The notes under the pieces were generated by a model that was not told the DNA's origin, made no database searches, and was given only the letters and a program-made list of their open reading frames with translations. Shown in pieces: positions 15,303 through 35,515 of a DNA stretch of 42,242 nt. Origin of the DNA: Candidatus Iainarchaeum sp. (lineage in GTDB: Archaea; Iainarchaeota; Iainarchaeia; Iainarchaeales; JAAZKV01); NCBI GenBank assembly GCA_028702895.1, contig JAQVNZ010000004.1, positions 1 to 42,242 of the forward strand, written 5' to 3'. The first letter of the stretch is position 1, and each line of letters starts with the position of its first letter. Position numbers and translations under genes: made by a program.

Positions 15303-15345
15303 ATTTGCGATTTTTTATTGAATGTTTAAATTAAAAAAACAATCT

Positions 15346-15390
15346 CGTCAATTGTCGTCTCAATCTTCGTCTTTTGGAAAGGTTTTTATA
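15346..15390 (+). promoter_or_regulatory. Candidate three-box operator plus BRE/TATA of gltD-like/HMGR operon
   Basis: CGTCAATTGT-CGTCTCAATCTT-CGTCTTTTGGAAA-GGTTTTTATA; same 0/+10/+22 spacing recurs at 18111 and 27297. Confidence 0.65.
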
Positions 15391-15465: not shown

Positions 15466-16803
15466 ATGCAGATTCCAAAAATATCCATTGGCGAAAGAAA
15501 AAATTCTTTTAAAGAAGTAGAAATAGGTTTCACTGAAGAAGAAGCACTCAAAGAAGCAAACAGATGTTTAAATTGTAAAAATCCGTTGTGCGTTGAGGGT
15601 TGTCCAGCAAATGTAAACATTCCTCTTTTTATAAAAGCGTTTAAAGAAGGAAGATTACAGGATGCTGCTGAAATAATTCGTGAAAAAAATTTTTTCCCAA
15701 GTATTTGTGGAAGAATTTGTCAACATGAAAAACAATGTGAAGGAAATTGCATACTAGCAAAAACAAAAGAAGGTGCTGTGAATATTGGTGGAATAGAAAG
15801 ATTTATTGGGGATCAAGCAAAACTTTCTTCTCCAAGAAAATTAAATGGAAAAAAAGTAGCTATTGTTGGTTCAGGCCCAAGTGGATTAACTGCCGCAGCA
15901 TACTTAGCATTAGAAGGAGTAAATGTTTTTGTTTTTGAAACAACAAATTCTTTTGGTGGAGTAATAAAATATGGTGTTCCCGAATTTCGTTTACCTAAAG
16001 AAACCGTTTCAAAAGACTTAATAATGTTACACGAACTTGGAATTGATTTTGAACCAAATTCAAAAATATCTGAAGATTTAATTGAAGAAGTTTCAAAAAA
16101 TTATGATGCTATTTTTGTTGGTACTGGAGTAGGTGCAACAAAAAAATTGTCAATTCCAGGATCAGATTTAAAAGGAATTATTTCAGCAATGAAATTTTTA
16201 GTTAATTTAAATCAAAGCGGAGTACCAATGGTTTCACCAGGTGAAAATGTTGTAGTTATTGGCGCAGGATATGTTGGAATAGATGCGTCTAGAAGTGCAA
16301 TTAGATTGGGTGCAAACGTAAAATGTATTACTGCGGCAACTAGGGAAGATGCACAAAAAAGTGTTTCGCCAAAAGATTATTTAGATGCAGAAGAAGAAGG
16401 AGTGGAATTTTTATTCGGTTATAATGTGGATAAATTTGAATCTGACGAAGACAATGATAAAGTAAAAAAAATATTTTATACTAATGGAGAAAAAGGAAGT
16501 GTGCAAGTAGACAAAGTAATAATTGCAATAGGTCAAGAGCATGATAAATCAGAATTAAAAAATCCGTTAAGAAACCCAGAATTGGGTTGTATTGAAGTTA
16601 ACAAAAAATATCAGACTAAAATAAAAAATGTTTTTGCAGCAGGTGATTGTGTACATGGTCCAAAAACAGTTATAGAAGCAATTGCTAATGGTAGAGATGC
16701 TGCTAAAGAAATATTACATTATTTTAAAAAAATAGATGAAGAAATAGAATTAAAATCTCAAAAAGATTTAATAGAAAAAGAGGTATCAAAAAATAAATTA
16801 TAA
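15466..16803 (+). CDS. Glutamate synthase small subunit-like / NfnB-like NADPH oxidoreductase (FeS + two FAD/NAD(P) domains)
   Basis: ANRCLNCKNPLCVEGCPANVNIPLFI, CGRICQHEKQCEGNC, KVAIVGSGPSGLTAAAYLA, VVVIGAGYVGIDASRSA, VFAAGDCVHGPKTVIEAIANGRDAA. Confidence 0.9.
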   Translation: MQIPKISIGERKNSFKEVEIGFTEEEALKEANRCLNCKNPLCVEGCPANVNIPLFIKAFKEGRLQDAAEIIREKNFFPSICGRICQHEKQCEGNCILAKTKEGAVNIGGIERFIGDQAKLSSPRKLNGKKVAIVGSGPSGLTAAAYLALEGVNVFVFETTNSFGGVIKYGVPEFRLPKETVSKDLIMLHELGIDFEPNSKISEDLIEEVSKNYDAIFVGTGVGATKKLSIPGSDLKGIISAMKFLVNLNQSGVPMVSPGENVVVIGAGYVGIDASRSAIRLGANVKCITAATREDAQKSVSPKDYLDAEEEGVEFLFGYNVDKFESDEDNDKVKKIFYTNGEKGSVQVDKVIIAIGQEHDKSELKNPLRNPELGCIEVNKKYQTKIKNVFAAGDCVHGPKTVIEAIANGRDAAKEILHYFKKIDEEIELKSQKDLIEKEVSKNKL

Positions 16804-16808
16804 AAAAG

Positions 16809-18095
16809 GTGATAAAAATAAATAAAAAAAGTTTTGAAGGATATTATAAAAAAAGCATTAAAGAAAGACAAGAAATATTATCAAAAGAATTATTATTAAC
16901 AAATGAAGAACAAAAACTTTTAGAAAAAGAAAGTTCTCTTTCATTTGATATTGCAGATAGAATGATAGAAAATGTTATAGGAACATTTCCTTTGCCATTA
17001 GGTTTAGCAACAAATTTTGTGATTGATGAAAAAGAATATGTGATTCCCTTTGCAATAGAAGAACCAAGTGTAATCGCAGCTGCTAGTAATGCTGCAAAAT
17101 TATCAAATGGGTTTATTACAGAAAATGATGAACAAATAATGATTGGCCAATTACAATTAATTAATTTAGAAAATGCTTGCGAATCAAAGAAAAAAATTTT
17201 AGAAAATAAAGAAAAAATTTTAAAAGAAGTAGAAAAAGTAGATCCAATACTCGTAAAATTTGGTGGGGGCCCAAGAGACTTAAAAGTAAATATATTAGAC
17301 ACGCCTCGCGGAAAAATGATTGAAGTGCAATTATTAGTTAATGTTGGAGATGCAATGGGTGCTAATGCAATAAATACTATGCTTGAAAAAATAACTTCTG
17401 TAATAGAAGAAATTTCTGGTGGAAAACATGTTGCAAGAATAATATCTAATTTAGCAATTTATAGACGAACCCAATCAAAAACTATTTGGACAAAAGAAAA
17501 ATTAGAAGAAAGTGTTAAAGGAACAATGAAAGGTGAAGAAATAATTGAACGAATATTAGATTTATATGAGTTTGCAGTAGCAACACCATTTAGGTGTGCA
17601 ACGCATAACAAAGGAATAATGAACGGAATCGATTCAGTTGTAATTGCAACAGGAAACGATTTTCGCGCAATAGAAGCAGGAGCACATGCTTATGCAAGTT
17701 ATAAGGGAAAATATTCTCCGCTAACAAAATACTATAAAAATTCTAACGGTGATTTAGTAGGTGAAATTGATATTCCATTAGCATTAGGATTAGTTGGTGG
17801 CGCAATAAAAGTTCATCCAATAGCAAAATTAAATGCAAAAATCTTAGGATTAAAAAAAGTACAAGATCTTGCTAGTGTGATTGCATCAGTTGGATTAGCA
17901 CAAAATTTTGCAGCAATGAGGGCTATTGCAACAACAGGAATACAATCAGGGCACATGAAATTACACGCAAAAAATATCGCAGTACAAGCAGGAGCAATAA
18001 AAGAAGAAATTGAATTAGTTGCACAAAAAATGATTGAATTAAAAGAAGTAAATCAATTAACAGCTGAAAAAATAATTGAAGAAATTAGAGAATAA
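16809..18095 (+). CDS. Hydroxymethylglutaryl-CoA reductase, class II-type
   Basis: FEGYYKKSIKERQEIL, RMIENVIGTFPLPLGLATNFVIDEKEYVIPFAIEEPSVIAAASNAAKL, VGDAMGANAINTMLE; GTG start 3 nt after the preceding stop region (the only plausible start near the conserved N-terminus). Confidence 0.93.
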   Translation: MIKINKKSFEGYYKKSIKERQEILSKELLLTNEEQKLLEKESSLSFDIADRMIENVIGTFPLPLGLATNFVIDEKEYVIPFAIEEPSVIAAASNAAKLSNGFITENDEQIMIGQLQLINLENACESKKKILENKEKILKEVEKVDPILVKFGGGPRDLKVNILDTPRGKMIEVQLLVNVGDAMGANAINTMLEKITSVIEEISGGKHVARIISNLAIYRRTQSKTIWTKEKLEESVKGTMKGEEIIERILDLYEFAVATPFRCATHNKGIMNGIDSVVIATGNDFRAIEAGAHAYASYKGKYSPLTKYYKNSNGDLVGEIDIPLALGLVGGAIKVHPIAKLNAKILGLKKVQDLASVIASVGLAQNFAAMRAIATTGIQSGHMKLHAKNIAVQAGAIKEEIELVAQKMIELKEVNQLTAEKIIEEIRE

Positions 18096-18110: not shown

Positions 18111-18154
18111 CGTCAATGAGCGAACCTTTTTTCGTCAATCAAAAGGTTTTTATA
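18111..18154 (+). promoter_or_regulatory. Candidate three-box operator plus BRE/TATA of HMGS operon
   Basis: CGTCAATGAG-CGAACCTTTTTT-CGTCAATCAAAA-GGTTTTTATA. Confidence 0.65.
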
Positions 18155-18216
18155 GATTAAGTAAGAGAATTTTTTTGTATTAAGTTTTTTAAATTTAAAA
18201 AAAGGTGTTTATTAAA

Positions 18217-19254
18217 ATGGCTGGAATAATTGGGTGGGGAGCATATATACCAAAATACAGAATAACTGCTGAAGAAATAGCCTTAGTGAATAATGATAAT
18301 GCGAATGCGATAAAAGCGGGTTTAGGTTTAACAGAAAAAAGTGTTCCTGGAAAAGACGAAGATACAATAACAATTTCACACGCTGCTACAAAAAATGCTA
18401 TTCTGCGAGCAGGAATAAAAACAAAAGAAATTGGTTCAATTTATATTGGTTCAGAAAGTCACCCTTATGCAGTAAAACCATCTTCAAGTATTGTTGGCGA
18501 TGCAATTGATTTAGGAAATGATTACATGGCCGTTGATACTGAATTTGCTTGTAAAGCAGGTAGTGCAACAATACAATTCAACATGGGTTTTGTTGATTCA
18601 AAAATGATAAATTATGGTTTAAGCATAGGTGCTGATACTAGTCAAGCAGAACCAGGAAATGCGTTAGAATATTCCGCTGCTGCTGGTGGCGCAGCATTTG
18701 TAATTGGAAAAAATGAAGAAGCAATTGCAACAATAGATTACACTTGTTCGTTTACTAGTGATACTCCTGATTTTTGGAGGCGAGCAATGCAACCTTATCC
18801 ATCTCATGCTGGGAGATTTACTGGTGAACCTGCTTACTTTAAACATGTTGTTGGTGCAACAAAAATGATTTTAGAAAAAACTAAAATGGAAATGAAAGAT
18901 TTCAAATATGTTGTATTTCATATGCCTAATGGAAAGTTTCCTGAACGCGTTGCAAAAATATTTGGGGTAACAAAAGAACAATTAGAACCAGGATTAATAG
19001 TAAAAAAAATTGGTAATACTTATTCGGGTTCAGCATTACTAGGATTAACTTGTGTATTAGATATAGCAAAACCAGGAGATAAAATTTTGATGACAAGTTA
19101 TGGTTCAGGGTCTGGGTCAGATTCATTTATTTTAACATGCACAGAAAAAATTGTTGGCGCGCAAAAAAAAGCACTAACAACACAAGATTATGTTGATAGA
19201 AAAGAATATTTGACATATTCAAAATATCGTAAACATATGGAGACAATACATTAA
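18217..19254 (+). CDS. Hydroxymethylglutaryl-CoA synthase (archaeal)
   Basis: GIIGWGAYIPKYRI, EFACKAGSATIQ, HMPNGKFPERVAKIFG, GNTYSGSALLGL. Start refined to ATG 18217. Confidence 0.94.
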   Translation: MAGIIGWGAYIPKYRITAEEIALVNNDNANAIKAGLGLTEKSVPGKDEDTITISHAATKNAILRAGIKTKEIGSIYIGSESHPYAVKPSSSIVGDAIDLGNDYMAVDTEFACKAGSATIQFNMGFVDSKMINYGLSIGADTSQAEPGNALEYSAAAGGAAFVIGKNEEAIATIDYTCSFTSDTPDFWRRAMQPYPSHAGRFTGEPAYFKHVVGATKMILEKTKMEMKDFKYVVFHMPNGKFPERVAKIFGVTKEQLEPGLIVKKIGNTYSGSALLGLTCVLDIAKPGDKILMTSYGSGSGSDSFILTCTEKIVGAQKKALTTQDYVDRKEYLTYSKYRKHMETIH

Positions 19255-19282
19255 AATTTTAAAAAATTTTAAAAAATTAAAA

Positions 19283-19340
19283 TTTTATTTTAAAAAAATT
19301 TGTTTTTAAAAAAATTAATAAAAAAATTGGTGAAAAAATG
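19283..19340 (+). repeat. AT-rich leader copy 1 (before thiolase)
   Basis: ttttattttaaaaaaatttgtttttaaaaaaattaataaaaaaattggtgaaaaaatg closely matches 23902-23973. Confidence 0.5.
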
Positions 19341-20495
19341 AAAATAGGTGTAATAGGAATTGGAATTACTCGATTTGGAGAAATTTGGGATAGGGGTTTA
19401 CGCGAATTACTTTTAGACTCACAACTTCGTGCACTTAACGATGCAAAAATTGTTCCACAACAAATTGACGCAATGTTTACTGGAAATATGTTAGGTGACT
19501 CATTATCTGGCCAAGTTCATATTGGAGCAATGGCTACTGAAAACTTAAATTTAGATAAACCAAGTATTCGCGTTGAAGGAGCATGTGCTTCTGGAGCATT
19601 AGCATTACGACAAGGAATAAAAGCAATTGAATCTGGAGACGCAGAAATTGTAATGGTTAATGGAGTAGAAAAAATGACTGATGTTGACACGGGTCAAGTA
19701 ACAACCGCATTAATGGGAGCGGGAGATGAAGAATTAGAAGGGTTTCATGGGTTAACATTTCCTGGATTATATTCATTATTAGCAAACGCATACATGCACA
19801 AATACCCTAGTCTTACAAGAGATATTTTAGCAGAAGTTGCAGTAAAAAATCATTTTCATGGTGCAAGAAATTCTTATTGTCAATTCAAAAACGAGATAAC
19901 AAAAGAAACAGTAATTAATTCTACAATGGTAGCAGACCCTTTAACATTATTTGATTGTTCGCCAATAACAGATGGTTCTGCAACAATAATAATTGCAAAA
20001 GAAGAAATTGCAAAAAAAATGAATTCAGAAGTTTTTATTACAGGTTCAGGTTTAGCAACAGACACATTATCCTTAGCTAGAAGAAATACGCTAACAGCAA
20101 TTCCGGCTGGACAAAAAGCTGCAAATCAAGCATATGCACAATCAAATATAACTTCAAAAGATATTAGTTTCGCAGAAGTACATGATTGTTTTACTATAGC
20201 AGAAATAATGGCAGTTGAAGCATTAGGTTTTGCAAAAGAAGGAGAAGCATTTAATTTATATAAAAATAAAGAGACTTATTTTGATTCAAAACATCCAATA
20301 AATACTTCAGGTGGATTAAAAGCTTGTGGCCATCCTGTTGGAGCAACTGGAATAAAACAAGCAATAGAAGCAACAATGCAATTAAGAGGCGAAGCAAAAA
20401 ATAGGCAAGTTTTAAACGCAACAGTTGGAGTAACGCATAATGTTGGTGGTAGCGGAGCAACAGCATGCGTGCATGTTTTTAAGAGGTTGAGATAA
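19338..20495 (+). CDS. Acetyl-CoA acetyltransferase (archaeal thiolase)
   Basis: VEGACASGALALRQGI, FAEVHDCFTIAEI, NTSGGLKACGHPVGATGIKQ. Confidence 0.93.
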   Translation: MKIGVIGIGITRFGEIWDRGLRELLLDSQLRALNDAKIVPQQIDAMFTGNMLGDSLSGQVHIGAMATENLNLDKPSIRVEGACASGALALRQGIKAIESGDAEIVMVNGVEKMTDVDTGQVTTALMGAGDEELEGFHGLTFPGLYSLLANAYMHKYPSLTRDILAEVAVKNHFHGARNSYCQFKNEITKETVINSTMVADPLTLFDCSPITDGSATIIIAKEEIAKKMNSEVFITGSGLATDTLSLARRNTLTAIPAGQKAANQAYAQSNITSKDISFAEVHDCFTIAEIMAVEALGFAKEGEAFNLYKNKETYFDSKHPINTSGGLKACGHPVGATGIKQAIEATMQLRGEAKNRQVLNATVGVTHNVGGSGATACVHVFKRLR

Positions 20496-20894
20496 ATGTT
20501 TAGAGAAAGCCCAATTATAAGATGGAGAAATTATTCGGATAGATACAAACTTTCGGGCCATAAATGTACTAAATGTGGTGCAAATTATTTTGAAAAAAAA
20601 GGTATGTGTGTTTGTGGAAACTTAATTTTTTCAGAAATGTTTTTTTCAGGAAATGGAAAAATTGTTTCATTTACAAAAATACATTCTGGTCCAAGTGTTT
20701 TTGAAGAACAATCTCCTTATTGTGTTGCAATAATTGATTTAGAAGAAGGTGCAAGAATAACTGCCCAAATAGTTGATTGTAAATATGATGAATTAAAAAT
20801 TGGTTTAGGAGTAGAAGCAGTTTTTAGAAAATTATATAAGAGTGGAGAAAAAGGAATAATCCATTACGGAACAAAATTTAGGTTAAAATTATAA
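20496..20894 (+). CDS. DUF35 OB-fold/zinc-ribbon protein (partner of archaeal thiolase/HMGS)
   Basis: Zn ribbon KCTKCGANYFEKKGMCVCG followed by OB-fold; starts directly after the thiolase stop. Confidence 0.9.
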   Translation: MFRESPIIRWRNYSDRYKLSGHKCTKCGANYFEKKGMCVCGNLIFSEMFFSGNGKIVSFTKIHSGPSVFEEQSPYCVAIIDLEEGARITAQIVDCKYDELKIGLGVEAVFRKLYKSGEKGIIHYGTKFRLKL

Positions 20895-20944
20895 TTTTTA
20901 TAAATTCTTAATGTTTTTAATGGGTTCTTATCACATTATTTATT

Positions 20945-21883
20945 ATGGGTTCTAGTGGGAAAGGATTTGCAAAAACAATTCTCTTTGGAGAACACTTTGT
21001 AGTATACGGTTTACCAGGCATAGCTGCGGGATTAGATAAATTTGTTCAAGCAGACGTGCAAACATTAAAAGATTCTAAAGAAATTATTTTTGATGATAAA
21101 GTTTTTGGAGAAAAATTTTCTATTAGTGAACAACCAGAGCATATTAAAAGTCAATTATTTAATGCAATGTTTTCAAAAGAAGATTTAAATGAAAAAGGAT
21201 TAAAAATAAATATTACAGCAAATTTTCCACACGGTGCAGGATTAGGTTATTCAGCAGCATTAAGTGTTGCTATTGCAAGAGCAGTTTCAACTGAATTGGA
21301 TTTAGATTTAAAAGATGAAGAAATAAATGATTTGGCATTTAAAGCAGAAAAAATCGCACATGGTAATCCTTCTGGAATTGATAATGCGTGTGCAACTTAT
21401 GGTACAACAATTTTATTTGAAAAAGATTTTAAAACAAATGAAAACAAATTAAAACAATTAAAAAATTCTGCAAAATTATTTTGTTTACTAGTTGATACTG
21501 GAATAAAACATAATACAAAAGAAGCAATCAAAAAAGTTAAAGAAAACAAAGAATCTAACCCGCAAGAATTTGAAAGAATATTTTCTGATTATAAAAAAAT
21601 TATTGTGAAAGCAAAACAAGAATTAAAATTTGGTGGAATAAAAGAACTTGGAAAATTAATGAATGAGAATCAAGAATTATTAAAAAAAATTGGTGTTTCT
21701 TGTAAAGAAGCGGAAGACATAATACGAACAGCCACATTTGAAAATTGTTTGGGTGCAAAAGTAACAGGGGCTGGTTGTGGCGGAAACGTATTAATTTTAT
21801 GTGGGATTGAAAAAGAATTGGATAAAATAGCAAATATTTTACAAGCAAAAAAATATTCTATAATAAAAACAAAAATAAGTTAA
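20945..21883 (+). CDS. mvk: Mevalonate kinase (GHMP family)
   Basis: GFAKTILFGEHFVVYGLPGIAAGL, FPHGAGLGYSAALSVA, KVTGAGCGGNVLILC. Confidence 0.95.
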   Translation: MGSSGKGFAKTILFGEHFVVYGLPGIAAGLDKFVQADVQTLKDSKEIIFDDKVFGEKFSISEQPEHIKSQLFNAMFSKEDLNEKGLKINITANFPHGAGLGYSAALSVAIARAVSTELDLDLKDEEINDLAFKAEKIAHGNPSGIDNACATYGTTILFEKDFKTNENKLKQLKNSAKLFCLLVDTGIKHNTKEAIKKVKENKESNPQEFERIFSDYKKIIVKAKQELKFGGIKELGKLMNENQELLKKIGVSCKEAEDIIRTATFENCLGAKVTGAGCGGNVLILCGIEKELDKIANILQAKKYSIIKTKIS

Positions 21884-21934
21884 TGTTCTAAAATTTTTTA
21901 AAAAATAAAATAAATTATTTTTAATTTGATTATT

Positions 21935-22501
21935 ATGAATAATAAAAAAATTATTGTCGCAGTTACTGGGGCATCAGGAACAAATTATGCACTAGCTTTA
22001 CTTACAGCGTTAAAAAAACAAGAAATAGAAGTTCATCTTATTGTTAGTGACTGGGCAGAAAAAGTTTTAAAAGAAGAAACTGGAAAAAAAGTTATTGAAT
22101 TAAAAAAACTTGCGACAAAAAATTATTCTAACACAAATTTAGCTGCAAACATTTCTTCAAGTTCGTTTCTAGTTGATGGTATGATAATTATTCCATGTTC
22201 AATAAAAACATGTTCTGAAATATTACATGCGCATACTTCAAATTTAATTACTAGGTGTGCGGATAATATGTTAAAAACAAAAAATAAATTAATTGTTGGT
22301 GTTAGAGAAACACCATTGAGTGGGCCCACATTAGAAAATCTTTGGAAACTTTCAATATATGGTGCAACAATATTTCCGCTAAGCCCTGGATTTTATCATA
22401 ATCCTAAAAAAATAAGTGATTTAGAAAGTTTTATAGTTGGAAAAGCATTAGATTTACTAGGGATTTCAAACAAAGAATATGTTAGATGGGAGAATAAATA
22501 A
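21935..22501 (+). CDS. ubiX: UbiX-like flavin prenyltransferase
   Basis: VAVTGASGTNYALALL, SFLVDGMIIIPCSIKTCSEI, NLITRCADNMLK, VRETPLSGPTLENLWKLSIYGATIFPLSPGFYHNPKKISDL. Start refined to ATG 21935. Confidence 0.93.
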   Translation: MNNKKIIVAVTGASGTNYALALLTALKKQEIEVHLIVSDWAEKVLKEETGKKVIELKKLATKNYSNTNLAANISSSSFLVDGMIIIPCSIKTCSEILHAHTSNLITRCADNMLKTKNKLIVGVRETPLSGPTLENLWKLSIYGATIFPLSPGFYHNPKKISDLESFIVGKALDLLGISNKEYVRWENK

Positions 22502-22595
22502 TTTTTAATTTAAAAAATAATTAAATTTAAATTAATTTAAAAAAAAGTTAAATTAAAAAAAATTAATTAATAAATAATAATTTTGGTGATTGATT

Positions 22596-23870
22596 ATGAG
22601 TTTTCGTGAATTTGTAAAAAAAACAGATTATGTTATTGATAAAGCAGTTTCAAAAAATTTACAAGCGAGTGGAATAATTTATTCTGCTAGTGATAAGAGT
22701 ATATTATTTAATAAAATAAAAGAAAATGATTACAAAGTTGCTGCTAATGTTTTTGCTTCAAAAGAAAAAGTCGCAAAATATCTTAATTGTGAAACCAAAG
22801 AATTAGTTCCATTAATGATAAACGCATTAAACAATCCATCTACTCCAGAACTTATTTTGAATACCGATCATGTGGAAATAGATTTAGATTTAGAAAAAAT
22901 ACCAATATTAATCCACACTGATTCAGATGGTGCGCCTTATGTTACAAGTGGGGTAATAATAGTAAAGGATTCGATTGTTGGGCAAAATGTTTGTTATCAT
23001 AGAGGTAGAGTTATTTTTAAAAATAAATTTGCTTTAAGAATACTTGAAAGAAATACTATGGAATTACTAAAAAAAAATAATGGTGAATTAAGAGCTGCTT
23101 ATTGTATTGGAATTGGGGCAGAAATTGCTTTAGCTGCAGCAATGGCTCCGGCATTAGGAGTTAACGAATTAGAAATAGCAAATACATTAAAACCAATAAA
23201 AGTTATTAATGCAAAAACATTTGATGCGATTTTACCTGCTGATGCAGAATTTATTTTAGAAGGAAAAATAAGTTTACATGAAAGACATAGCGAAGGCCCG
23301 TTCGTTGATTTGACTGGCACAAGTGATATTATAAGAGACGAACCAGTTTTTACAGTTGAAAAAATTTATGCTAGACCAAATGCAATATATCACGCGTTAT
23401 TACCTGGCGGGTTTGAACACAAAATATTAATGGGTATGCCAAGAGAACCAACAGTATTTGATGAAGTAAAAAAAGCGGGCGTTGATATAATAGATGTTAG
23501 TATTAATCCTGGTGGAAGTTCATGGTTTCATGTTTTAATTAAGATTAATAAAAAAACAGAGGAAGATGGAAAAAAAGCAATTGTGGCTGCTATGAAAGGA
23601 CATACTAGTGGAAAACATTTTTTTGTAGTTGATAATGATATTAATATTTATGATCCATTAGAAGTAGAATGGGCGTTTGCAACAAGATTTCAAGCAAATA
23701 AAGATTTTTATAAATTTGAAAACCAAAAAGGATCTTCGTTAGATCCAAGTGCTAATCAAGTAACAAGAGAAACTACTAAAGCTGGATTTGATTTAACAAT
23801 GCCATTAGACAGAATAAGTGAAATGAAGAGAACAAAATTCCCAGAAAATAATATAAAAGATTATTTGTAA
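22596..23870 (+). CDS. UbiD-family decarboxylase; candidate trans-anhydromevalonate-5-phosphate decarboxylase
   Basis: UbiD-like: GAEIALAAAMAP, FILEGKISLHERHSEGPFVDLTGTSDIIRDEPVFTVEKIYARPNAIYHALLPGGFEHKILMGMPREP. Specific substrate inferred from neighbours. Start refined to ATG 22596. Confidence 0.85.
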   Translation: MSFREFVKKTDYVIDKAVSKNLQASGIIYSASDKSILFNKIKENDYKVAANVFASKEKVAKYLNCETKELVPLMINALNNPSTPELILNTDHVEIDLDLEKIPILIHTDSDGAPYVTSGVIIVKDSIVGQNVCYHRGRVIFKNKFALRILERNTMELLKKNNGELRAAYCIGIGAEIALAAAMAPALGVNELEIANTLKPIKVINAKTFDAILPADAEFILEGKISLHERHSEGPFVDLTGTSDIIRDEPVFTVEKIYARPNAIYHALLPGGFEHKILMGMPREPTVFDEVKKAGVDIIDVSINPGGSSWFHVLIKINKKTEEDGKKAIVAAMKGHTSGKHFFVVDNDINIYDPLEVEWAFATRFQANKDFYKFENQKGSSLDPSANQVTRETTKAGFDLTMPLDRISEMKRTKFPENNIKDYL

Positions 23871-23901
23871 ATTAATTTGCATGATGATTAAAAGTCATAA
23901 T

Positions 23902-23973
23902 TTTTATTTTAAAAAAATTTTGTTTTTAAAAAAATTTAATAAAAAATTGTTTAAAAAAATTGGTGAAAAAATG
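23902..23973 (+). repeat. AT-rich leader copy 2 (before AcnX large subunit)
   Basis: ttttattttaaaaaaattttgtttttaaaaaaatttaataaaaaattgtttaaaaaaattggtgaaaaaatg; near copy of 19283-19340 with a short insertion. Confidence 0.5.
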
Positions 23974-25164
23974 TTATTAACAAAAGAAGAACAAGAAATG
24001 CTCAAAGGAAAATATGGTAATGCTGTTAAAAAAAGCATGGAAATACTTGTCGCATTAGGCGAAATTTATGGTGCTGAAAAATTAATTAGGGTTTCATCAG
24101 TACAAGTTGCGGGGGTAAGTTATGATAATTTAGGTGAATCTGGATTAGAATATTTATCTAATCTTTCAAAAGATGGTAGAGTAAAAGTTTTAACAACATT
24201 AAATCCTGCAGGAATGGATTTAGAAAATTATGAAGCATTAGGAATATCAGAAGATTTTGCAATAAAACAAAAAATGGTAATTGATTCATTTGCAAAAATG
24301 GGGGTAATAACCACTTGTACATGTACACCTTATTTGATAGGGAATACTCCAAATTTTAATCAACATATTGCTTGGAGTGAAAGTAGTGCGGTTGCTTATG
24401 CTAATTCGGTTCTTGGTGCAAGAACAAATAGAGAAGGCGGGCCAAGTGCATTGGCATCAGCATTAACTGGCCGAACACCTTTGTATGGATTGCATTTAGA
24501 TGAAAATAGAATTGCTAAAATAAAAATAATTGTAAAAACGCAAATAAAAGGAACTCAAAATTTTGGCGCATTAGGGAAAGTTATTGGTGAAAAAATAAAG
24601 TCAACTCCTTGTTATATTATTGGAATAAACGAAGCGAGTATGGAAGAATTAAAATCATTTTCTGCAAGTATTGCAACTTATGGTGGCGCAGGAATATTTC
24701 ACATGGAAAATATAACTCCTAATAAAACAGTTATTCCGTTAGAAGAATTAATTGTCACAAAAAAAGAAATAGAAAAAGCTTTAAACGAAATGAATATGGG
24801 TGATTGTGAAGTAGATTTTGTTAGCGTTGGATGTCCACATGCGAGTATCGCTGAAATAGCAAAACTAGCTGATTTATTAAATGGAAAAAAAGTAAAAAAA
24901 GAATTTTGGATAACAACTGCAAGACCAACAAAAAAAATTGCTGACATGAGCGGTTATTCTAAAATAATTGAAACTGCTGGGGCAAAATTCGCGTCAGATA
25001 CTTGTTGTGTTGTTGCGCCAATAAAAGGAAGATTCAAATGTCTTGCAACAGATTCTGCAAAAGGGTGTTATTATGCATATTCAAAAAATCAGTCAAAAAT
25101 AAAAATAATGTCAGTTGAAAATTTAGTGAAAGAAGCGTGCAAAGAACCAAGCGTGGTGAAATAA
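23971..25164 (+). CDS. Aconitase X large subunit; phosphomevalonate dehydratase large subunit
   Basis: MLLTKEEQEMLKGKYGNAVKKSMEILVALGEIYGAEKLI, TCTCTPYLIGNTPNFNQHIAWSESSAVAYANSVLGARTNREGGPSALASALTGRTP. Start refined to ATG 23971 with GGTGA SD. Confidence 0.93.
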   Translation: MLLTKEEQEMLKGKYGNAVKKSMEILVALGEIYGAEKLIRVSSVQVAGVSYDNLGESGLEYLSNLSKDGRVKVLTTLNPAGMDLENYEALGISEDFAIKQKMVIDSFAKMGVITTCTCTPYLIGNTPNFNQHIAWSESSAVAYANSVLGARTNREGGPSALASALTGRTPLYGLHLDENRIAKIKIIVKTQIKGTQNFGALGKVIGEKIKSTPCYIIGINEASMEELKSFSASIATYGGAGIFHMENITPNKTVIPLEELIVTKKEIEKALNEMNMGDCEVDFVSVGCPHASIAEIAKLADLLNGKKVKKEFWITTARPTKKIADMSGYSKIIETAGAKFASDTCCVVAPIKGRFKCLATDSAKGCYYAYSKNQSKIKIMSVENLVKEACKEPSVVK

Positions 25165-25556
25165 TGGCGAAATTAATTGGGCGAAAAATTTTTGGTGGAA
25201 TCGCGATGGGCGAAGCACTTGTTACAAAACAAGGAATAAGTTTTTTTGGGGGGATAGACCCATCTACTGGAGTAGTGACTGAATCAGGTCATGAATTAGA
25301 AGGAAAAAGTATTAGTGGAAAAATACTTGTTTTTCCCCAAGGTAAAGGGTCAACAGTTGGGAGTTATGCATTATATAGAATGAAAAAAGAAGGTACTGCT
25401 CCAATAGCATTAGTAAATAAAGAATGTGAAACAATAGTTGCTGTTGGTGCAATAATTTCAGAAATTCCTTGTGTTGATAAAATTGATATTCTACAAATAA
25501 AAAATGGTCAAAAAATAAAAGTTGATGGTGAAAAAGGAATTGTGATTTTTGATTGA
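25164..25556 (+). CDS. Aconitase X swivel/small subunit; phosphomevalonate dehydratase small subunit
   Basis: GRKIFGGIAMGEALVTKQGISFFGGIDPSTGVV, LVFPQGKGSTVGSYALYRM; ATG overlaps the large-subunit stop (TAATG). Confidence 0.93.
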   Translation: MAKLIGRKIFGGIAMGEALVTKQGISFFGGIDPSTGVVTESGHELEGKSISGKILVFPQGKGSTVGSYALYRMKKEGTAPIALVNKECETIVAVGAIISEIPCVDKIDILQIKNGQKIKVDGEKGIVIFD

Positions 25557-25572
25557 TATTTAAATAGTTTGA

Positions 25573-25977
25573 ATGAATAACTTGATTATGCGAATTTTAG
25601 ATATAATTAAACGAAGAATGATTTTGCAACGTAATAAAAAAACAGGCATTTCTCCTTACGTACGAGGAAAAACAAAAATAAATAATGTTTTAAATTTAAA
25701 AATTAGTAAATTTTCGCATAGTGGAAAAGTGCATAATGTTGTTACTCGGCGTGATGTTAATTCATTAATAAAAATTTCAAAAGGTAGATCACAAATTGCT
25801 AAAAAAGCAGAAGGAGTGCTTTTTAATTTACAACGAAGAAAAGTTTTAGTAAAAGAAAAAAGGTTTGGAAAATTTAGAGAAAATTCACAATTGGGTTTAG
25901 TTTGGTTTGATAAACTTACTGGGCCAAATGAAAATATTGGTGCAGTTAAACGTGCTGCAAAAACAAAATTAAAATAA
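25573..25977 (+). CDS. Basic protein of unknown function embedded in isoprenoid cluster
   Basis: 134 aa, Lys/Arg-rich; no family recognised by eye. Confidence 0.45.
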   Translation: MNNLIMRILDIIKRRMILQRNKKTGISPYVRGKTKINNVLNLKISKFSHSGKVHNVVTRRDVNSLIKISKGRSQIAKKAEGVLFNLQRRKVLVKEKRFGKFRENSQLGLVWFDKLTGPNENIGAVKRAAKTKLK

Positions 25978-26016
25978 TAATATGTTATTTTTAAAAGTAA
26001 CTTAAAGAGATTTATT

Positions 26017-26817
26017 ATGAAAGATTTAATAATTTTAAAAATTGGCGGTTCTTCAATAACCAAAAAAGCCGAAAACAAATTTGAAATGAATGAAGAAATA
26101 TTAGAACGCGTGGCAAAAGAAATAGCAATTGCAAAAAAGAAAAAAGATTTTGATTTAGTTTTAGTTTGTGGTGTTGGGCCATTTGGACATACTAATGTTG
26201 TTAATTATAATTTAAATGGAAAAATTAAAACTCTTGCACAAAAAGAAGGTGTTTTAAAAACAAAAAAAGATTGTGATTTTGTTGCGTTAAAAGTAATAAC
26301 TGCGTTAAAAAAAAATGGTTTAATTGTTAATCACTTGCCTGGTTATAAAGTTTGTAAACAAGATGAAAGAAAAGTAATTTTTTTTGAAACGAATTCTTAT
26401 AAAAAATTATTAGAAAAAAATATTATTCCTGTTACAACTGGTACAATGGTGCATGATAAAAGTTTTAATTGGAGTGTTATGTCTGGAGATACAGTTATTT
26501 CAGAATTATGTAAATCTTTAAAACCAAAAAAAGTTTTAATAGGAACAGATGTTAACGGGATTTTTACTTCTGACCCAAAATTAAATAAAAAAGCAGAATT
26601 AATTGAACTAATAACAAAACAAAATTTAGAAAAAGTTTTAGAACAATGCGGTGAATCAAATTCAGTTGATGTTACTGGTGGAATGAAAGGAAAATTAGAC
26701 AAATTAGGGAAACAATTAGGAAATGTTCCTGCTGAAATATTTTCATTATTTATCCAAAAAAATTTAGAAAATGTTTTAAGTGGAAAAGAAATAAAAAGTA
26801 CAAAAATCAAGTTATAA
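26017..26817 (+). CDS. Isopentenyl phosphate kinase
   Basis: AAK fold: LIILKIGGSSITKK, VCGVGPFGHTNVVNYNL (conserved His), GDTVISELCKSLKPKKVLIGTDVNGIFTSDP, DVTGGMKGKL. Confidence 0.92.
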   Translation: MKDLIILKIGGSSITKKAENKFEMNEEILERVAKEIAIAKKKKDFDLVLVCGVGPFGHTNVVNYNLNGKIKTLAQKEGVLKTKKDCDFVALKVITALKKNGLIVNHLPGYKVCKQDERKVIFFETNSYKKLLEKNIIPVTTGTMVHDKSFNWSVMSGDTVISELCKSLKPKKVLIGTDVNGIFTSDPKLNKKAELIELITKQNLEKVLEQCGESNSVDVTGGMKGKLDKLGKQLGNVPAEIFSLFIQKNLENVLSGKEIKSTKIKL

Positions 26818-26819
26818 TT

Positions 26820-27305
26820 ATGATTCCAAACGCAAGAAAAAAAATTTCAAAAATGCATGTTGCTATTGCACAAAAAAAAGGTAGTGTAAAATTAAAAAAT
26901 GATATTCAAAAAATTCGTTTTGTTGAAAGAAAAATATTTGGTGTTGGAAAAACAATTTCTCAAAAAACATATTTTCATCCTAAAAAGAATTTGATTAAAA
27001 TTAAATTAGAAAGAGCTGGAAAAGAAATCGGAAAATTAGAAATTGGAATTAAAAAAATTGGAACTTATAAAGAAGCATTTTTTTCAGACGCGTTTATAAA
27101 AAAAACTATGCGTGAAAAAGGACTTTATTCACAAGTGGTTGCTCAAGCACTGGATGTTTTAACAAAATCGGGAGTTAATACAGTTAGATTTGAAGCTACT
27201 GGAGGACATTCTGTTTTAAAAAAAATGGGGTTCGAATCAAAATCACAATTTGGTAGTAGAATTTATTACAAAGAATTAAACCCACAAAAACAAGTTCGTC
27301 AATAA
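26820..27305 (+). CDS. GNAT-like acetyltransferase domain protein
   Basis: Motif A-like MREKGLYSQVVAQALDVLTKSGVNTVRFEATGGHSVLKKMGFE. Confidence 0.6.
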   Translation: MIPNARKKISKMHVAIAQKKGSVKLKNDIQKIRFVERKIFGVGKTISQKTYFHPKKNLIKIKLERAGKEIGKLEIGIKKIGTYKEAFFSDAFIKKTMREKGLYSQVVAQALDVLTKSGVNTVRFEATGGHSVLKKMGFESKSQFGSRIYYKELNPQKQVRQ

Positions 27306-27341
27306 ACGAAGCGATTTTCGTCTAAATGTAATGTTTTTAAA
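27297..27341 (+). promoter_or_regulatory. Candidate three-box operator plus TATA of por operon
   Basis: CGTCAATAAA-CGAAGCGATTTT-CGTCTAAATGTAA-TGTTTTTAAA. Confidence 0.6.
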
Positions 27342-27398: not shown

Positions 27399-27944
27399 AT
27401 GAAGCAAATAATTTTTTTAGGACGCGGTGGACAGGGAGCAGTTACAAGCTCACAAGTTCTTGCAATTTCTGCGTTTATTGATGGTAAACAATCACAAGCA
27501 TTTCCAAATTTTGGTGTTGAAAGAACAGGTGCACCAGTAAGAAGTTATTGTAGAATAGATGATAAAAAAATTAATTTAAGAGAACAATTAAAAGAAGCGG
27601 ATTATGCGTTAATTTTAGATCCCACATTAACAAAAAATTTAAATGAAAAGATAACTTCACTAATAATTGTTAATTCTAATAAAAAACCAGTTGACTTAGG
27701 CTTACAAACAAATGCGAAAGTAATTTGTATTGATATAACAAAAGTTGCAATGGAAAAAATTGGGAAACCATTTGTAAATATTTCAGCGCTAGGTGCTTTT
27801 GCAGCATTAACAAATGAAATAACTTTAGAATCATTAGAAAAAGCAGTTTTGCAACAAATGGGTGCAAAAGGAAGTATTGTAGAAAAAAATATTGAAGCAG
27901 TTAGAGAGGTTTATAAAATTTCTAAAAATGATTTGCAAAAATAA
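27399..27944 (+). CDS. porG: Pyruvate:ferredoxin oxidoreductase gamma subunit
   Basis: GRGGQGAVTSSQVLAISAFIDGKQSQAFPNFGVERTGAPVRSYCRI. Confidence 0.93.
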   Translation: MKQIIFLGRGGQGAVTSSQVLAISAFIDGKQSQAFPNFGVERTGAPVRSYCRIDDKKINLREQLKEADYALILDPTLTKNLNEKITSLIIVNSNKKPVDLGLQTNAKVICIDITKVAMEKIGKPFVNISALGAFAALTNEITLESLEKAVLQQMGAKGSIVEKNIEAVREVYKISKNDLQK

Positions 27945-27985
27945 TTTTATGATTTAAATAACTAAAAGATTAATGATTGATTTTT

Positions 27986-28279
27986 ATGGATAAAGAACTA
28001 AAAAGTAAAGATGGTGTAATTCTTACAAAAGGTGCGGTTATACGTGAGCCTGGATCAACAAAAAAATATAAAACTGGAGATTGGCGAACATTCAAACCAA
28101 GTATAGATCAAGAAAAATGTATTAAATGTGGGAAATGTTGGTTAAATTGTCCCGATGCTGCAATATACAAGGATAAAGATGGGAAATTTCAAATAAATTA
28201 TGATTATTGCAAAGGTTGTTTAATATGCGCGAAAGTTTGTCCTGTTAAAGCAATTGGTTTTGTGGTAGAAGAAAAATAA
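27986..28279 (+). CDS. porD: Pyruvate:ferredoxin oxidoreductase delta (ferredoxin) subunit
   Basis: GDWRTFKPSIDQEKCIKCGKCWLNCPDAAIY...DYCKGCLICAKVCPVKAI. Confidence 0.93.
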   Translation: MDKELKSKDGVILTKGAVIREPGSTKKYKTGDWRTFKPSIDQEKCIKCGKCWLNCPDAAIYKDKDGKFQINYDYCKGCLICAKVCPVKAIGFVVEEK

Positions 28280-28341
28280 TTTTGTTTAAGCGAATATGAT
28301 TTTTATTTGAAATGATTTAAGTTTATTTGGGAATGATTTTT

Positions 28342-29487
28342 ATGGTTGAAAAAAAAGTAATGTCAGGTTCAGAAGCAATTGCATTAGCAGTAAAATTATG
28401 CAAACCATTAGTTTTACCAATGTACCCAATCACACCTAGTACACTTGTTCCAGAAAAATTATCTGAATTTGTAGCTAATGGTGAATTAAACGCTCAAATG
28501 ATTTATGTTGAATCAGAACATTCTGCAATATCAGCTTTATATGGAGCATATGCTACGGGAGTTCGATCTTTCACAGCTACTGCTTCTCAAGGTTTAGCAT
28601 TAATGCATGAAATTATTCCAATAGTTTCTGCTTCAAGATTTCCAGCTGTAATGTTTATTGCAAACAGGGCTTTATCTGGGCCATTAAGTATTTGGAACGA
28701 TCATTCAGATTCAATGAGTGAACGCGATCAAGGTTGGATACAATTATTTTGTGAAGATATTCAAGAAGCATTTGATACTATAATAATGGCATACAAAATT
28801 GCTGAAAAAGAAAATGTTTCCTTACCTATAATGGTTTGCGCAGATGGTTTTATTTTAACACACGTTTACGAACCAGTACAAATAGAAGAACAAGAAAAAA
28901 TAACTGATTTTGTTGGAACATATAATCCAAAAGATTTTTTGGACACTAAAAACCCAAAAACATTTGGTGCATTCGCACAACCAAATACTTATTTTGAATT
29001 CAAAGAACAAGTACAAGACGCAATGATGGAAGCATTAAAAGAAATAAAAAATGTGAATGAAGAGTTTGGAAAAAAATTTAAAAGAAAATATGGTGATGGA
29101 TTAATAGAATTAATAGAAATGCAAGATGCAGAATATGCACTATTGATTGCAGGAAGTACTATTGGAACTGCAAGAGAAGTAGTAAAAGATTTAAGAAAAA
29201 AAGGTAAAAAAGTTGGGTTAATAAAATTAAAATCTGTTCGGCCATTTCCAACAAAAGAATTAATTTTAGCTTCAAAAAAATTAAAAGGATTAGGAATTAT
29301 AGATAGACATATTTCTTTAGGATATGAAGGCGCATTATGTACTGAAACAAAAGCAGCATTAGTAAAAGAAAAAGTTAATGTAACAGGATTTATCGCGGGA
29401 TTAGGTGGACGAGATATTGATAGAGAAAGAATAAGACACGCTTTTGATTTAATAATAAATGGAAAAGAAGGCGTTTGGTTAAAATAA
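28342..29487 (+). CDS. porA: Pyruvate:ferredoxin oxidoreductase alpha subunit
   Basis: YPITPSTLVPEKLSEF, ESEHSAISALYGAYATGVRSFTATASQGLALMHE, ANRALSGPLSIWNDHSDSM. Confidence 0.94.
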   Translation: MVEKKVMSGSEAIALAVKLCKPLVLPMYPITPSTLVPEKLSEFVANGELNAQMIYVESEHSAISALYGAYATGVRSFTATASQGLALMHEIIPIVSASRFPAVMFIANRALSGPLSIWNDHSDSMSERDQGWIQLFCEDIQEAFDTIIMAYKIAEKENVSLPIMVCADGFILTHVYEPVQIEEQEKITDFVGTYNPKDFLDTKNPKTFGAFAQPNTYFEFKEQVQDAMMEALKEIKNVNEEFGKKFKRKYGDGLIELIEMQDAEYALLIAGSTIGTAREVVKDLRKKGKKVGLIKLKSVRPFPTKELILASKKLKGLGIIDRHISLGYEGALCTETKAALVKEKVNVTGFIAGLGGRDIDRERIRHAFDLIINGKEGVWLK

Positions 29488-29503
29488 TTTATTGGTGAAA
29501 TTT

Positions 29504-31513
29504 ATGGCTATAATTGGATTTGAAGAAAAAGAGTTTTTTGCACCAGGGCACAGAGCATGTGCTGGTTGTGGGGAAGCACTTGCATTAAGACACGTGTTAA
29601 AAGCAGCAGGACAAGAAACAATTTTGGTAATGGCAACAGGGTGCATGGAAGTAGTTTCAACACCATATCCTGAAAGTGCTTTTGAAATTCCATGGGTGCA
29701 TTGTGCATTTGAAACAGTTGGTTCAGTAGCAAGTGGAGTAAAAGCTTCATTAATCGCGAAAGGTGATACTAAAACAAATGTTATTGGAATGGGTGGAGAC
29801 GGAGCAATGTTTGACATTGGTTTTGGAGCATTAAGCGGAGCGTTAGAACGCGGACACAAAATATTATTTGTTGTAACTGATAATGAAGCTTACATGAATT
29901 GTTTAGCTTTAGACTCTTTAATAATGACAAAAGAGGGTCTGAAAAAGATTACTGAAATAAATGTTGGTGATGAAGTATATGCATTTAGTCAATCTACTCA
30001 TGAATTAGTTTTAAAAAAATGTAGTGGAGTATTTGACAATGGAAAAAAAAGAGTTTTTGAAATTAATACGTCTTCAAACACAATAAAAGCAACTGGAAAT
30101 CATCCTTTTTTAATTCTTCAAAGAAATGGAAAAGAGGGAAAAAATAAATTTGTTTGGAAAATGGTTGAAGAACTAAAAGTTGGTGAAGAAGTTGTAACTT
30201 TAAAAAAAGGTCTTGAAGGCAAATCCTATAACTTTTCAAATATTAAATTATCTAAAAAAGGAGATTATAAAGTTAACAAAATAAACGAAGTAAATTTACC
30301 AGGTAAATCTTCGCCCAAAATAATGAAATTATTTGGAATTTATGTTGGTGATGGCTGGACAAGAATAAATAAAGCTGAAGTTGGATTTGCACTTCCAAAT
30401 GGAAAAAAAGGAAGAAAAGAAGCAAAACAATTAATTGAGAGTTTATCTTGGAATAACTGTTTAAGTGAAAACGAAAATGAATTGCAACTTAGATCAATAA
30501 ATATTGCGCGATTTTTTGATTCACAAGGATTTGGCAAAGGTGCAAAAAATAAAATTATTCCACAATGGGTTTTCACATTACCACTAAAAGAAAAACAAGC
30601 ATTTGTTGAAGGATTATTACTCTCTGATGGATATACTATTGGTAAAAGTCATCGATATGTTTCTGCTAGTTATGAACTTCTTAGAACATTAAGATTATTA
30701 TTACAAACAATGGATATGCAAGTTGGTAAAATTCACCAACAAACAAAAAAGAAAGGAGTTCTTGTTGTAAAAAAACAATTGCTTGCAGATTCAACTTATG
30801 GTTATGTTTGTTTTAGTGGAAAACAAGGCGCGATGTTAAAATATGCTAATCAAAATAAACAAAGAAATTTTTTATTTGGAAATGAGCATTTTGAAACAAA
30901 GAAAATACTTTCAATAGAAAAAAAAGGTATTGAAAAAACACTTGATTTAAGAGTGGATGGAGAACACAATTTTGTTGCAAATGGAGTTGTTGTTCATAAT
31001 ACTGGAATTCAAAGAAGTGGTGCAACATTTCCTTATGCTAATACTACTACTTCGCCAGCAGGAAAAATAATTGTTGGAAAACAAGAACCAAAAAAACCTT
31101 TAACTTTTATTGCAGCAGCACATGGGATAAAATATGTGGCCTCTGCATCAGTATCAAACTTATTTGATTTAAAAACAAAAGTTCAAAAAGCACTGGCAAC
31201 AGATGGGCCATCATTATTACACGTTTATGTTCCTTGTATTCCTGGGTGGAAAATGGATTCTTCTTTAACCATAGATATTTCAGTAAAAGCTTTTGAAACA
31301 AATGTTTTTCCATTATATGAAATAGAAAATGGTGTGCTTAAATTAAATCAAAAAGTTCCTCAAAAAAAAGGAATTGAAGAATATTTAATGATGCAAGGTA
31401 GATTCAAACATATTACTCCAGAAATTGCTCTAAAAATGCAAACGTATGTTGATGCACGATACAAATTTTTAGAAGAAAATAATGGAAAAAAAATATTCGA
31501 TACATTATTTTAA
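29504..31513 (+). CDS. porB: Pyruvate:ferredoxin oxidoreductase beta subunit, interrupted in-frame by an intein
   Basis: FFAPGHRACAGCGEALALRHVLKA, GMGGDGAMFDIGFGAL...DNEAYMN^TGIQRSGATFPYANTTTSPAGK; intein between N and T. Confidence 0.95.
   Translation: MAIIGFEEKEFFAPGHRACAGCGEALALRHVLKAAGQETILVMATGCMEVVSTPYPESAFEIPWVHCAFETVGSVASGVKASLIAKGDTKTNVIGMGGDGAMFDIGFGALSGALERGHKILFVVTDNEAYMNCLALDSLIMTKEGLKKITEINVGDEVYAFSQSTHELVLKKCSGVFDNGKKRVFEINTSSNTIKATGNHPFLILQRNGKEGKNKFVWKMVEELKVGEEVVTLKKGLEGKSYNFSNIKLSKKGDYKVNKINEVNLPGKSSPKIMKLFGIYVGDGWTRINKAEVGFALPNGKKGRKEAKQLIESLSWNNCLSENENELQLRSINIARFFDSQGFGKGAKNKIIPQWVFTLPLKEKQAFVEGLLLSDGYTIGKSHRYVSASYELLRTLRLLLQTMDMQVGKIHQQTKKKGVLVVKKQLLADSTYGYVCFSGKQGAMLKYANQNKQRNFLFGNEHFETKKILSIEKKGIEKTLDLRVDGEHNFVANGVVVHNTGIQRSGATFPYANTTTSPAGKIIVGKQEPKKPLTFIAAAHGIKYVASASVSNLFDLKTKVQKALATDGPSLLHVYVPCIPGWKMDSSLTIDISVKAFETNVFPLYEIENGVLKLNQKVPQKKGIEEYLMMQGRFKHITPEIALKMQTYVDARYKFLEENNGKKIFDTLF
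29900..31000 (+). mobile_element. Intein (367 aa) with LAGLIDADG homing endonuclease in PorB
   Basis: Cys1 (CLALDSLIMTKEGLKKITEINVGDEVYAF), TxxH block B (KATGNHPFLIL), LAGLIDADG-like helices (LFGIYVGDGW; AFVEGLLLSDGY), C-terminal block VDGEHNFVANGVVVHN followed by Thr+1. Confidence 0.95.
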
Positions 31514-33755: not shown

Positions 33756-35471
33756 ATGGTTGTGTTAAATGTGGATGGTGCGAAAAAAATAGTTCAATCT
33801 TTGATTGAAAATAAGACAGAAATAATTTTTGGTTTTCCTGGTGCTAGTATAATGCCAGTTTATGATAAACTATTAGATTATCCCGCAATAAGACATGTAT
33901 TAGTTAGACATGAACAAGCCGCTGCACATGCAGCTGATGCTTATGCAAGAATAAAAAACAAACCCGGAGTATGTATGAGCACTTCAGGGCCAGGTGCAAC
34001 AAATCTAGTAACAGGAATAATGACTGCTTACATGGATTTTGCTCCTCTTATCGCATTATCCGGAAATGTTTCAAAAAGTTCAATGGGTAAACGCTCATTT
34101 CAAGAAACAGATATGGTTAGTATTACAAAAGCGATTACAAAAAAAAATTTTAGAATAAATGAAACAAGTGAAATTGATGATATAATAAAAAATTCTTTTG
34201 AAATTGCGATGAGTGGTCAACGTGGACCAGTTTTTATCGATATTCCAAAAGATATTCAAACAAGCAACGCAGATTTTCAAGAACAAAAAAATTATTTCAC
34301 AAAACCAATGGCGCCGCGCAATTCAAAAATAAATAATTTAAATTTAAATTTAGCTGCAAAAGAAATTTTATCCGCGTCTAGACCAATAATACTTGTTGGT
34401 GGGGGAGCAATTTCTTCAAATGCAATAAATGAAATAAACAAAATTTCAACAGGATTAAATATTTTTGTTGCAACTACACTAATGGGTAAAGGAGCATTTG
34501 ATGAAACTAATGTATTTTCTTTAGGCGTTATTGGAATGCATGGAAAAAAAATTGCTAATTATGCAATAAGTGAGGCAGATGTTATTCTAACAGTTGGTTG
34601 TCGTTTTAGTGATCGAATTACAGGGGACACAAATTTTTTTGCAAAAGATGCTAAAATAATCCAAATAGAAATAAGCAAAAATGAAATTAATAAAAACATT
34701 AAATCTACTATTGCGCTAATTGGAGATGCAAAACAAGTTTTAATCGAATTAATAAAAAGAATTGATTTTAAATCAAGAAAAAATTCTGTTTGGCAAGACA
34801 AAATGAAGAATTTTGTTAAAGAATGTAATTGTAATATTAATATTAATTCACCAAAAATAGACCCGCGAAAAATAATTCACGAATTAAATAATACAATTAA
34901 AAAACAAGATATTATTACTACTGGCACTGGCCAACACCAAATGTTTGCAATGCACTTTTTGAAAAGAAGTCTTCCAAGAACATTTATTACATCGGGGGGA
35001 AGTGGTACAATGGGATATGGTTTTCCAGCATCAATTGGAGCAAAAATCGCGTCTCCAGAAAATAATGTTTTTAACATTGATGGCGATGGCAGTTTTGCAA
35101 TGGTTAGCCAAGAATTAGCTACTTGCAAAGAAGAAGAAATTAAAACAACTCAACTAATATTTAACAACGCATATCTTGGAATGGTTAGGCAATGGCAAGA
35201 ATTATTTATGGATAAACGCTATGCGCACACGCATCTTAAACGCACACCGAATTTTGCAAAACTTGCAGAAGCATACTCGCTTTATGGTGAAACAATAGAA
35301 CGGCCAAGTGAAATAAACCAAGCAATAAAAACAGCTATTAAAAACGATTCAACTACAGTACTGGATTTTTTGATTGATGAAGAATCAAATATTTTGCCAA
35401 TGTTTGGTGCGGGTGATAAATCAATTAATATGTTTGGAAATTGTATTCAAAACAAAGGAATGTTATTCTAA
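33756..35471 (+). CDS. ilvB: Acetolactate synthase large subunit (ThDP)
   Basis: IFGFPGASIMPVYDKL, RHEQAAAHAADAYAR, STSGPGATNLVTGI, GGSGTMGYGFPASIGAK, DGDGSFAMVSQELATC, NNAYLGMVRQWQELF. Confidence 0.92.
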   Translation: MVVLNVDGAKKIVQSLIENKTEIIFGFPGASIMPVYDKLLDYPAIRHVLVRHEQAAAHAADAYARIKNKPGVCMSTSGPGATNLVTGIMTAYMDFAPLIALSGNVSKSSMGKRSFQETDMVSITKAITKKNFRINETSEIDDIIKNSFEIAMSGQRGPVFIDIPKDIQTSNADFQEQKNYFTKPMAPRNSKINNLNLNLAAKEILSASRPIILVGGGAISSNAINEINKISTGLNIFVATTLMGKGAFDETNVFSLGVIGMHGKKIANYAISEADVILTVGCRFSDRITGDTNFFAKDAKIIQIEISKNEINKNIKSTIALIGDAKQVLIELIKRIDFKSRKNSVWQDKMKNFVKECNCNININSPKIDPRKIIHELNNTIKKQDIITTGTGQHQMFAMHFLKRSLPRTFITSGGSGTMGYGFPASIGAKIASPENNVFNIDGDGSFAMVSQELATCKEEEIKTTQLIFNNAYLGMVRQWQELFMDKRYAHTHLKRTPNFAKLAEAYSLYGETIERPSEINQAIKTAIKNDSTTVLDFLIDEESNILPMFGAGDKSINMFGNCIQNKGMLF

Positions 35472-35515
35472 AAAATAAACGGAAGTCTTTAATATTAAAA
35501 AGCTTTTATTTTATA

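Follow-up and report, generated by a model that had tools for sequence, protein, structure and literature searches.

A putative operator shared by pyruvate:ferredoxin oxidoreductase and archaeal mevalonate-pathway promoters in Candidatus Iainarchaeum and related Diapherotrites

The 42,242-nucleotide stretch of Candidatus Iainarchaeum sp. DNA analysed here, referred to as the window, carries ahead of a GltD-like oxidoreductase gene the motif CGTC at positions 15346, 15356 and 15368, followed by GGTTTTTATA from position 15381. Does this arrangement form a regulatory element and, if so, which genes would it control and which protein might bind it? A preliminary description had read it as an operator made of three direct CGTC boxes that recurs before two other operons, and had judged such recurrence unlikely by chance. 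The letters and positions are as described there, and matching sites do lie before two other operons (Table 1). In the window, whose GC content is 27% and which holds 595 CG dinucleotides, CGTC-N6-CGTC-N8-CGTC with up to two mismatches was found three times; shuffled sequences gave 0.03 matches on average, and three matches in none of 100 shuffles. The reduced pattern CG-N8-CG-N10-CG, with a TATA-like box 9-15 nt further on, occurs exactly three times, at sites 1, 2 and 3, that is, only before the GltD-like/HMG-CoA reductase (HMGR), HMG-CoA synthase (HMGS) and pyruvate:ferredoxin oxidoreductase (POR) gamma genes. Against these three matches, 142 other CG spacings averaged 0.014 and never gave more than 1, which bears out the judgement on chance.

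Table 1. Putative operator sites, core-promoter boxes and the genes behind them in the window
Feature	Position	Strand	Remarks
Site 1, distal full palindrome (boxes 1 and 2)	15344..15359	+	CTCGTCAATTGTCGTC, ideal form TTCGTCAATTGACGAA; clean form in f8/f9
Site 1, box 3	15366..15374	+	TTCGTCTTT; half of second site, 22 bp from box 1
BRE end (GG) and TATA box, GltD-like/HMGR operon	15381..15390	+	TATA box TTTTTATA
GltD-like Fer4_20 / pyridine-nucleotide-disulphide oxidoreductase	15466..16803	+	First gene of operon 1
HMG-CoA reductase, class II	16809..18095	+	TIGR00532, 423 bits (cut-off 260)
Site 2	18111..18136	+	CGTCAATGAGCGAACCTTTTTTCGTC
TATA box, HMGS operon	18147..18154	+	TTTTTATA
HMGS operon	18205..27305	+	
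Site 3	27297..27322	+	CGTCAATAAACGAAGCGATTTTCGTC; overlaps stop codon of 161-aa gene
TATA-like box, POR operon	27334..27341	+	TTTTTAAA
POR gamma, delta, alpha, beta	27399..31513	+	Intein in beta

Boxes 1 and 2 are inverted partners that make up one palindrome, TTCGTCAATTGACGAA, centred on AATT and reading CG.CAATTG.CG in the majority of cases. A second such site, 22 bp (two helical turns) downstream and adjoining BRE/TATA, has box 3 as its left half; only this half, TTCGWCAAT, is well kept, and the outer half is not palindromic. The palindrome of site 3 contains a stop codon (CGTCAATAA), which may explain its departure from CAATTG. The element is one complete palindrome with a half-site 22 bp further on, and not three equivalent direct boxes: the three phased boxes stand as first described, but box 2 pairs with box 1 in inverted orientation, it reads CGTC at site 1 only, and the part that is invariant across sites is CG. 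The element is upstream of TATA and so outside the transcript from that promoter, which led us to reject regulation at the RNA level.

The genes behind the three sites are those of the archaea-type mevalonate pathway plus its acetyl-CoA source, POR. The first six genes of the HMGS operon encode HMG-CoA synthase, a thiolase, an OB-fold protein, mevalonate kinase (MVK), and UbiX-like and UbiD-like proteins, and the remaining ones AcnX large and small, a 134-aa protein, isopentenyl phosphate kinase (IPK) and a 161-aa protein. The enzymes of the archaea-type (anhydromevalonate-phosphate) pathway have been described (PMC11052028) and, like the archaeal clusters for it, the window has HMGS, HMGR, MVK, AcnX large/small, a UbiD/UbiX-type decarboxylase and IPK. 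No site was found at the genes for IPP isomerase, prenyl synthase and geranylgeranyl reductase elsewhere in the window. As to other features of the region, the 134-aa (25573-25977, strongly basic) and 161-aa (26820-27305) proteins, both encoded inside the mevalonate operon, are without significant Pfam/NCBIfam match; the POR beta gene (TPP enzyme domain, 29492-31513) contains an intein with a LAGLIDADG-type domain; and a TPP enzyme of the pyruvate-oxidase/acetolactate-synthase type and an ADP-forming acyl-CoA synthetase are encoded after the POR operon (33756-37546), without an operator.

Conservation was followed in family f1 of Ca. Diapherotrites (Iainarchaeota), comprising ten genomes (G000-G009, of which G000 is the genome of the window). 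Sites with at most one mismatch were found in eight of the ten, and the reversed control pattern gave 0 matches. Boxes 1 and 3 are 22 bp apart in 18 of 18 sites of the family, and TATA lies 14-17 nt after the third CG, starting 36-39 nt from box 1. All sites precede GltD-like, HMGS or PORgamma genes, with the exception of a gene for a 128-aa protein and of two matches that are coding or adjacent to a tRNA; a match in G003 (C38) was discarded, as it falls inside a coding frame. The rest of the own genome holds, at up to one mismatch, only two further places, C14:4780, which is a member of the regulon, and C41:79101, which was rejected as such, being at the 3' end of a LAGLIDADG ORF with a tRNA adjacent and TATA not at the right distance. 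This motif-like sequence (L005, C41:79101-79126) belongs to an ORF of 318 aa, and the tRNA beside it looks intron-containing when read by eye. Matches with three mismatches in the own genome were dismissed as noise (11, against 24 for the reversed pattern).

Orthologous promoters of family f1 were also fetched by protein search, independently of the motif. The element is present in the GltD-like promoters of all ten genomes, in the HMGS promoters of five (G000, G003, G004, G005 and G009) and in the POR promoters of G000, G003 and G008, plus that of G002 in a version shifted by one base (three to four in total). Among these orthologous promoters, G001 lacks it at both HMGS and POR, G002 at HMGS and G004 at POR; in G006 and G007, HMGS lies close behind an upstream gene. 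Across the ten GltD-like promoters the box columns are 96% identical, against 31% for the N7 internal spacer and 39% for the flanks. In the pooled loci of the family, 21 distinct matches were found at 0/+10/+22, where other spacings averaged 0.25 and never exceeded 3; the count is taken as supporting only, the loci having been partly picked for the motif.

A fourth target, in genus g1, is the gene for the 128-aa protein, a membrane protein without Pfam family that is not homologous to the products of the other target genes. In all four g1 genomes its promoter keeps the 0/+10/+22 spacing of the three CGs and, ahead of TATA, a box 3 of TCGACAATA type, with TTCGACAATAACC in the same register as box 3 of site 1, and TATA follows 11 nt after the CG of box 3, versus 14-17 nt elsewhere in f1. 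The motif led only to the copy in the own genome; the three others were retrieved by protein search and are therefore an independent test of the spacing.

Beyond these genomes, a sequence-only profile made from 15 sites gave values of 3e-9 for GltD of G006, 3e-7 for HMGS of G009, 9e-5 for POR of G002 and 1e-4 for GltD of G009 among held-out f1 promoters, and of 5e-7 for POR of f16, 3e-6 for HMGR of f16 and 2e-5 for GltD of f7 in other families. The GltD-like promoters of f7 show CG-N8-CG in 10 of 10 full-length cases, with TATA at 38-39, and box 3 is TTCGTT in four of them; the other six have a GACAATAACC-type sequence there, in the same register. GTDB r220 (85,488 species genomes, 264 Gb) was scanned for exact matches to a pattern of ~40-44 bp. 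Of the 19 found, 11 are scattered among unrelated bacteria and eight lie in Diapherotrites, all eight upstream of GltD-like/HMGR, HMGS or POR; at the bacterial rate ~0.004 matches would be expected in the ~90 Mb of the phylum, an arithmetic figure that AT-richness would raise somewhat. Where database matches with the same sequences carry a name, it is that of Ca. Diapherotrites (Ca. Forterrea among them), apart from one labelled Micrarchaeota. The pattern is far above background both genome-wide and database-wide and is kept upstream of orthologous operons, so that the claim of a recurring operator withstood the two checks.

Families f8 and f9 have the palindrome TTCGTCAATTGACGAA in clean form and on its own, ~6 nt before a TATA-like box (L218, L219, L220-L223, L229, L230). 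There it precedes class-III-signal-peptide (pilin-like) operons and a lipoprotein gene that is conserved across three genomes; both labels, pilin-like and lipoprotein, come from our reading of the N-termini and not from a Pfam match. The same palindrome at such genes in other families of the order suggests a rewired regulon. The GltD-like promoters of f19 (L073, L074) have in common a different element, TTTTTGWCGTAATGTTTTTATT, which may be the operator in diverged form.

The sequence itself shows the element, how it is spaced and conserved, and which genes are its targets, and the element would almost certainly be a functional operator of one regulon. Chance similarity, or the shared ancestry of neutral DNA, is refuted: orthologous promoters do have common descent, but spacer and flanks are down to 31-39% identity beside boxes at 96%, the same arrangement is present at four unrelated operons, and the matches of the database scan concentrate in Diapherotrites at the target genes, which leaves this explanation a negligible probability. 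The nearly fixed distance to TATA in f1 could also be expected of an extended core-promoter element that is constitutive, not regulated, and recognized by a TFB/TBP variant; this is highly improbable, since the 128-aa gene has its TATA at 11 rather than 14-17 nt, the element occurs at very few promoters, and there is a perfect dyad inside it that is also found alone at other genes. It can also be the case that the bound protein is a repressor, blocking TFB/TBP or polymerase when the demand for isoprenoids or acetyl-CoA is low. Box 3 ends only ~10-13 nt before TATA, and the palindrome of f8 and f9, ~6 nt before TATA, would overlap BRE; in f1, f7 and f16, however, BRE/TATA stays unobstructed, with the centre of the full palindrome ~31-33 nt upstream of TATA, in the position where archaeal activators are described to bind (PMC2995911), and we regard repression as rather unlikely. 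A place just upstream of BRE/TATA does suit an activator, as had been proposed in the preliminary description, and we infer that activation by the bound regulator, instead of repression, is reasonably probable. A dimeric winged-helix regulator would bind the palindrome TTCGTCAATTGACGAA (boxes 1 and 2), and a second subunit pair would bind, via box 3, the site centred 22 bp further on, so as to adjoin BRE/TATA on the same helix face, where it would most likely help to recruit TBP/TFB. POR, the GltD-like flavoprotein (ferredoxin/pyridine-nucleotide-type), HMGR and the remaining anhydromevalonate-phosphate pathway would be switched together, and the supply of acetyl-CoA and reductant would thereby be matched to isoprenoid (membrane-lipid) synthesis. 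To this reading as a whole, namely a proximal operator, an Lrp-type regulator and coordinated control of the flux from pyruvate to isoprenoids, we give slightly better than even chances.

As regards the protein, archaeal Lrp dimers recognize imperfect inverted repeats of 13-17 bp with AT-rich centres; neighbouring sites are separated by two or three helical turns, activators occupy a site directly upstream of BRE, and one of these proteins, Ss-LrpB, activates a POR operon (PMC2995911). Like the operators of Ptr2, LysM and Ss-LrpB, the element described here is an imperfect inverted repeat with an AT-rich centre (AATT in TTCGTCAATTGACGAA); as in Lrp-type activator operators, a second site lies two turns away on one helix face and the proximal site is a few bp upstream of BRE, the genome encodes an Lrp/AsnC protein, and a POR operon is among the targets, as for Ss-LrpB. 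It differs from them in the sequence of the palindrome, in its targets (HMGR, HMGS and the whole anhydromevalonate pathway), in a proximal site reduced to one clear half, and in that no site indicative of autoregulation, a common although not obligatory trait, was found upstream of lrp in nine f1 genomes; the binder is here a candidate only. In the Ptr2 consensus CGTC reads outward from the centre, whereas in the present element it reads inward.

The leading candidate, which we put forward tentatively, is the single Lrp/AsnC protein of the genome (C37:91244-91711), its one PF01037 protein, whose PDB relatives by sequence are PH1519 (FL11) and LrpA. An orthologue is present in 76 of the 79 genomes of the order, including families without detected motif, so that its distribution cannot tell the candidates apart; the HTH hardly varies within the order, and for this reason a comparison of recognition helices is uninformative as a discriminator. 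In f8, the palindrome is within ~25 bp after the lrp gene in the three genomes (3/3) that have both. The same operator and regulon might instead be served by a different binder, such as an ArsR-type winged-helix protein, a possibility of real weight although short of an even chance. Three PF01022 (HTH_5) matches in the own genome exceed the cut-off, the palindrome in f9 directly follows a gene for an ArsR-HTH plus transmembrane protein, and the Lrp orthologue is universal whether the motif is detected or not; but tandem sites two turns apart that abut BRE are described for archaeal Lrp proteins, and in f1 no ArsR-type gene was seen tied to the element.

The regulatory system is very probably real and undescribed. 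In the literature searched we found no transcriptional regulator or operator of the archaeal mevalonate pathway and no DPANN regulon whose operator has been defined. The sequence, its regulon and the use of the operator by this lineage appear undescribed there, and the kind is one already known, a wHTH-type operator abutting an archaeal core promoter. A more far-reaching proposal, which we consider speculative and on balance doubtful, is that of a dedicated DPANN system in which one operator would serve POR, redox supply and the whole archaeal mevalonate pathway, an ancestral palindrome would have been rewired within one order, serving pilin-like/lipoprotein surface genes in f8 and f9 and lipid precursors in f1, f7 and f16, and the universal Lrp would be a global cell-envelope regulator. 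The exact sites and a single candidate protein allow testing in vitro without culturing the organism. If true, the finding would provide a natural case of one operator palindrome with different gene sets in sister families, and an exact sequence from which to study how membrane-lipid synthesis in a minimal archaeon is matched to acetyl-CoA and reductant.
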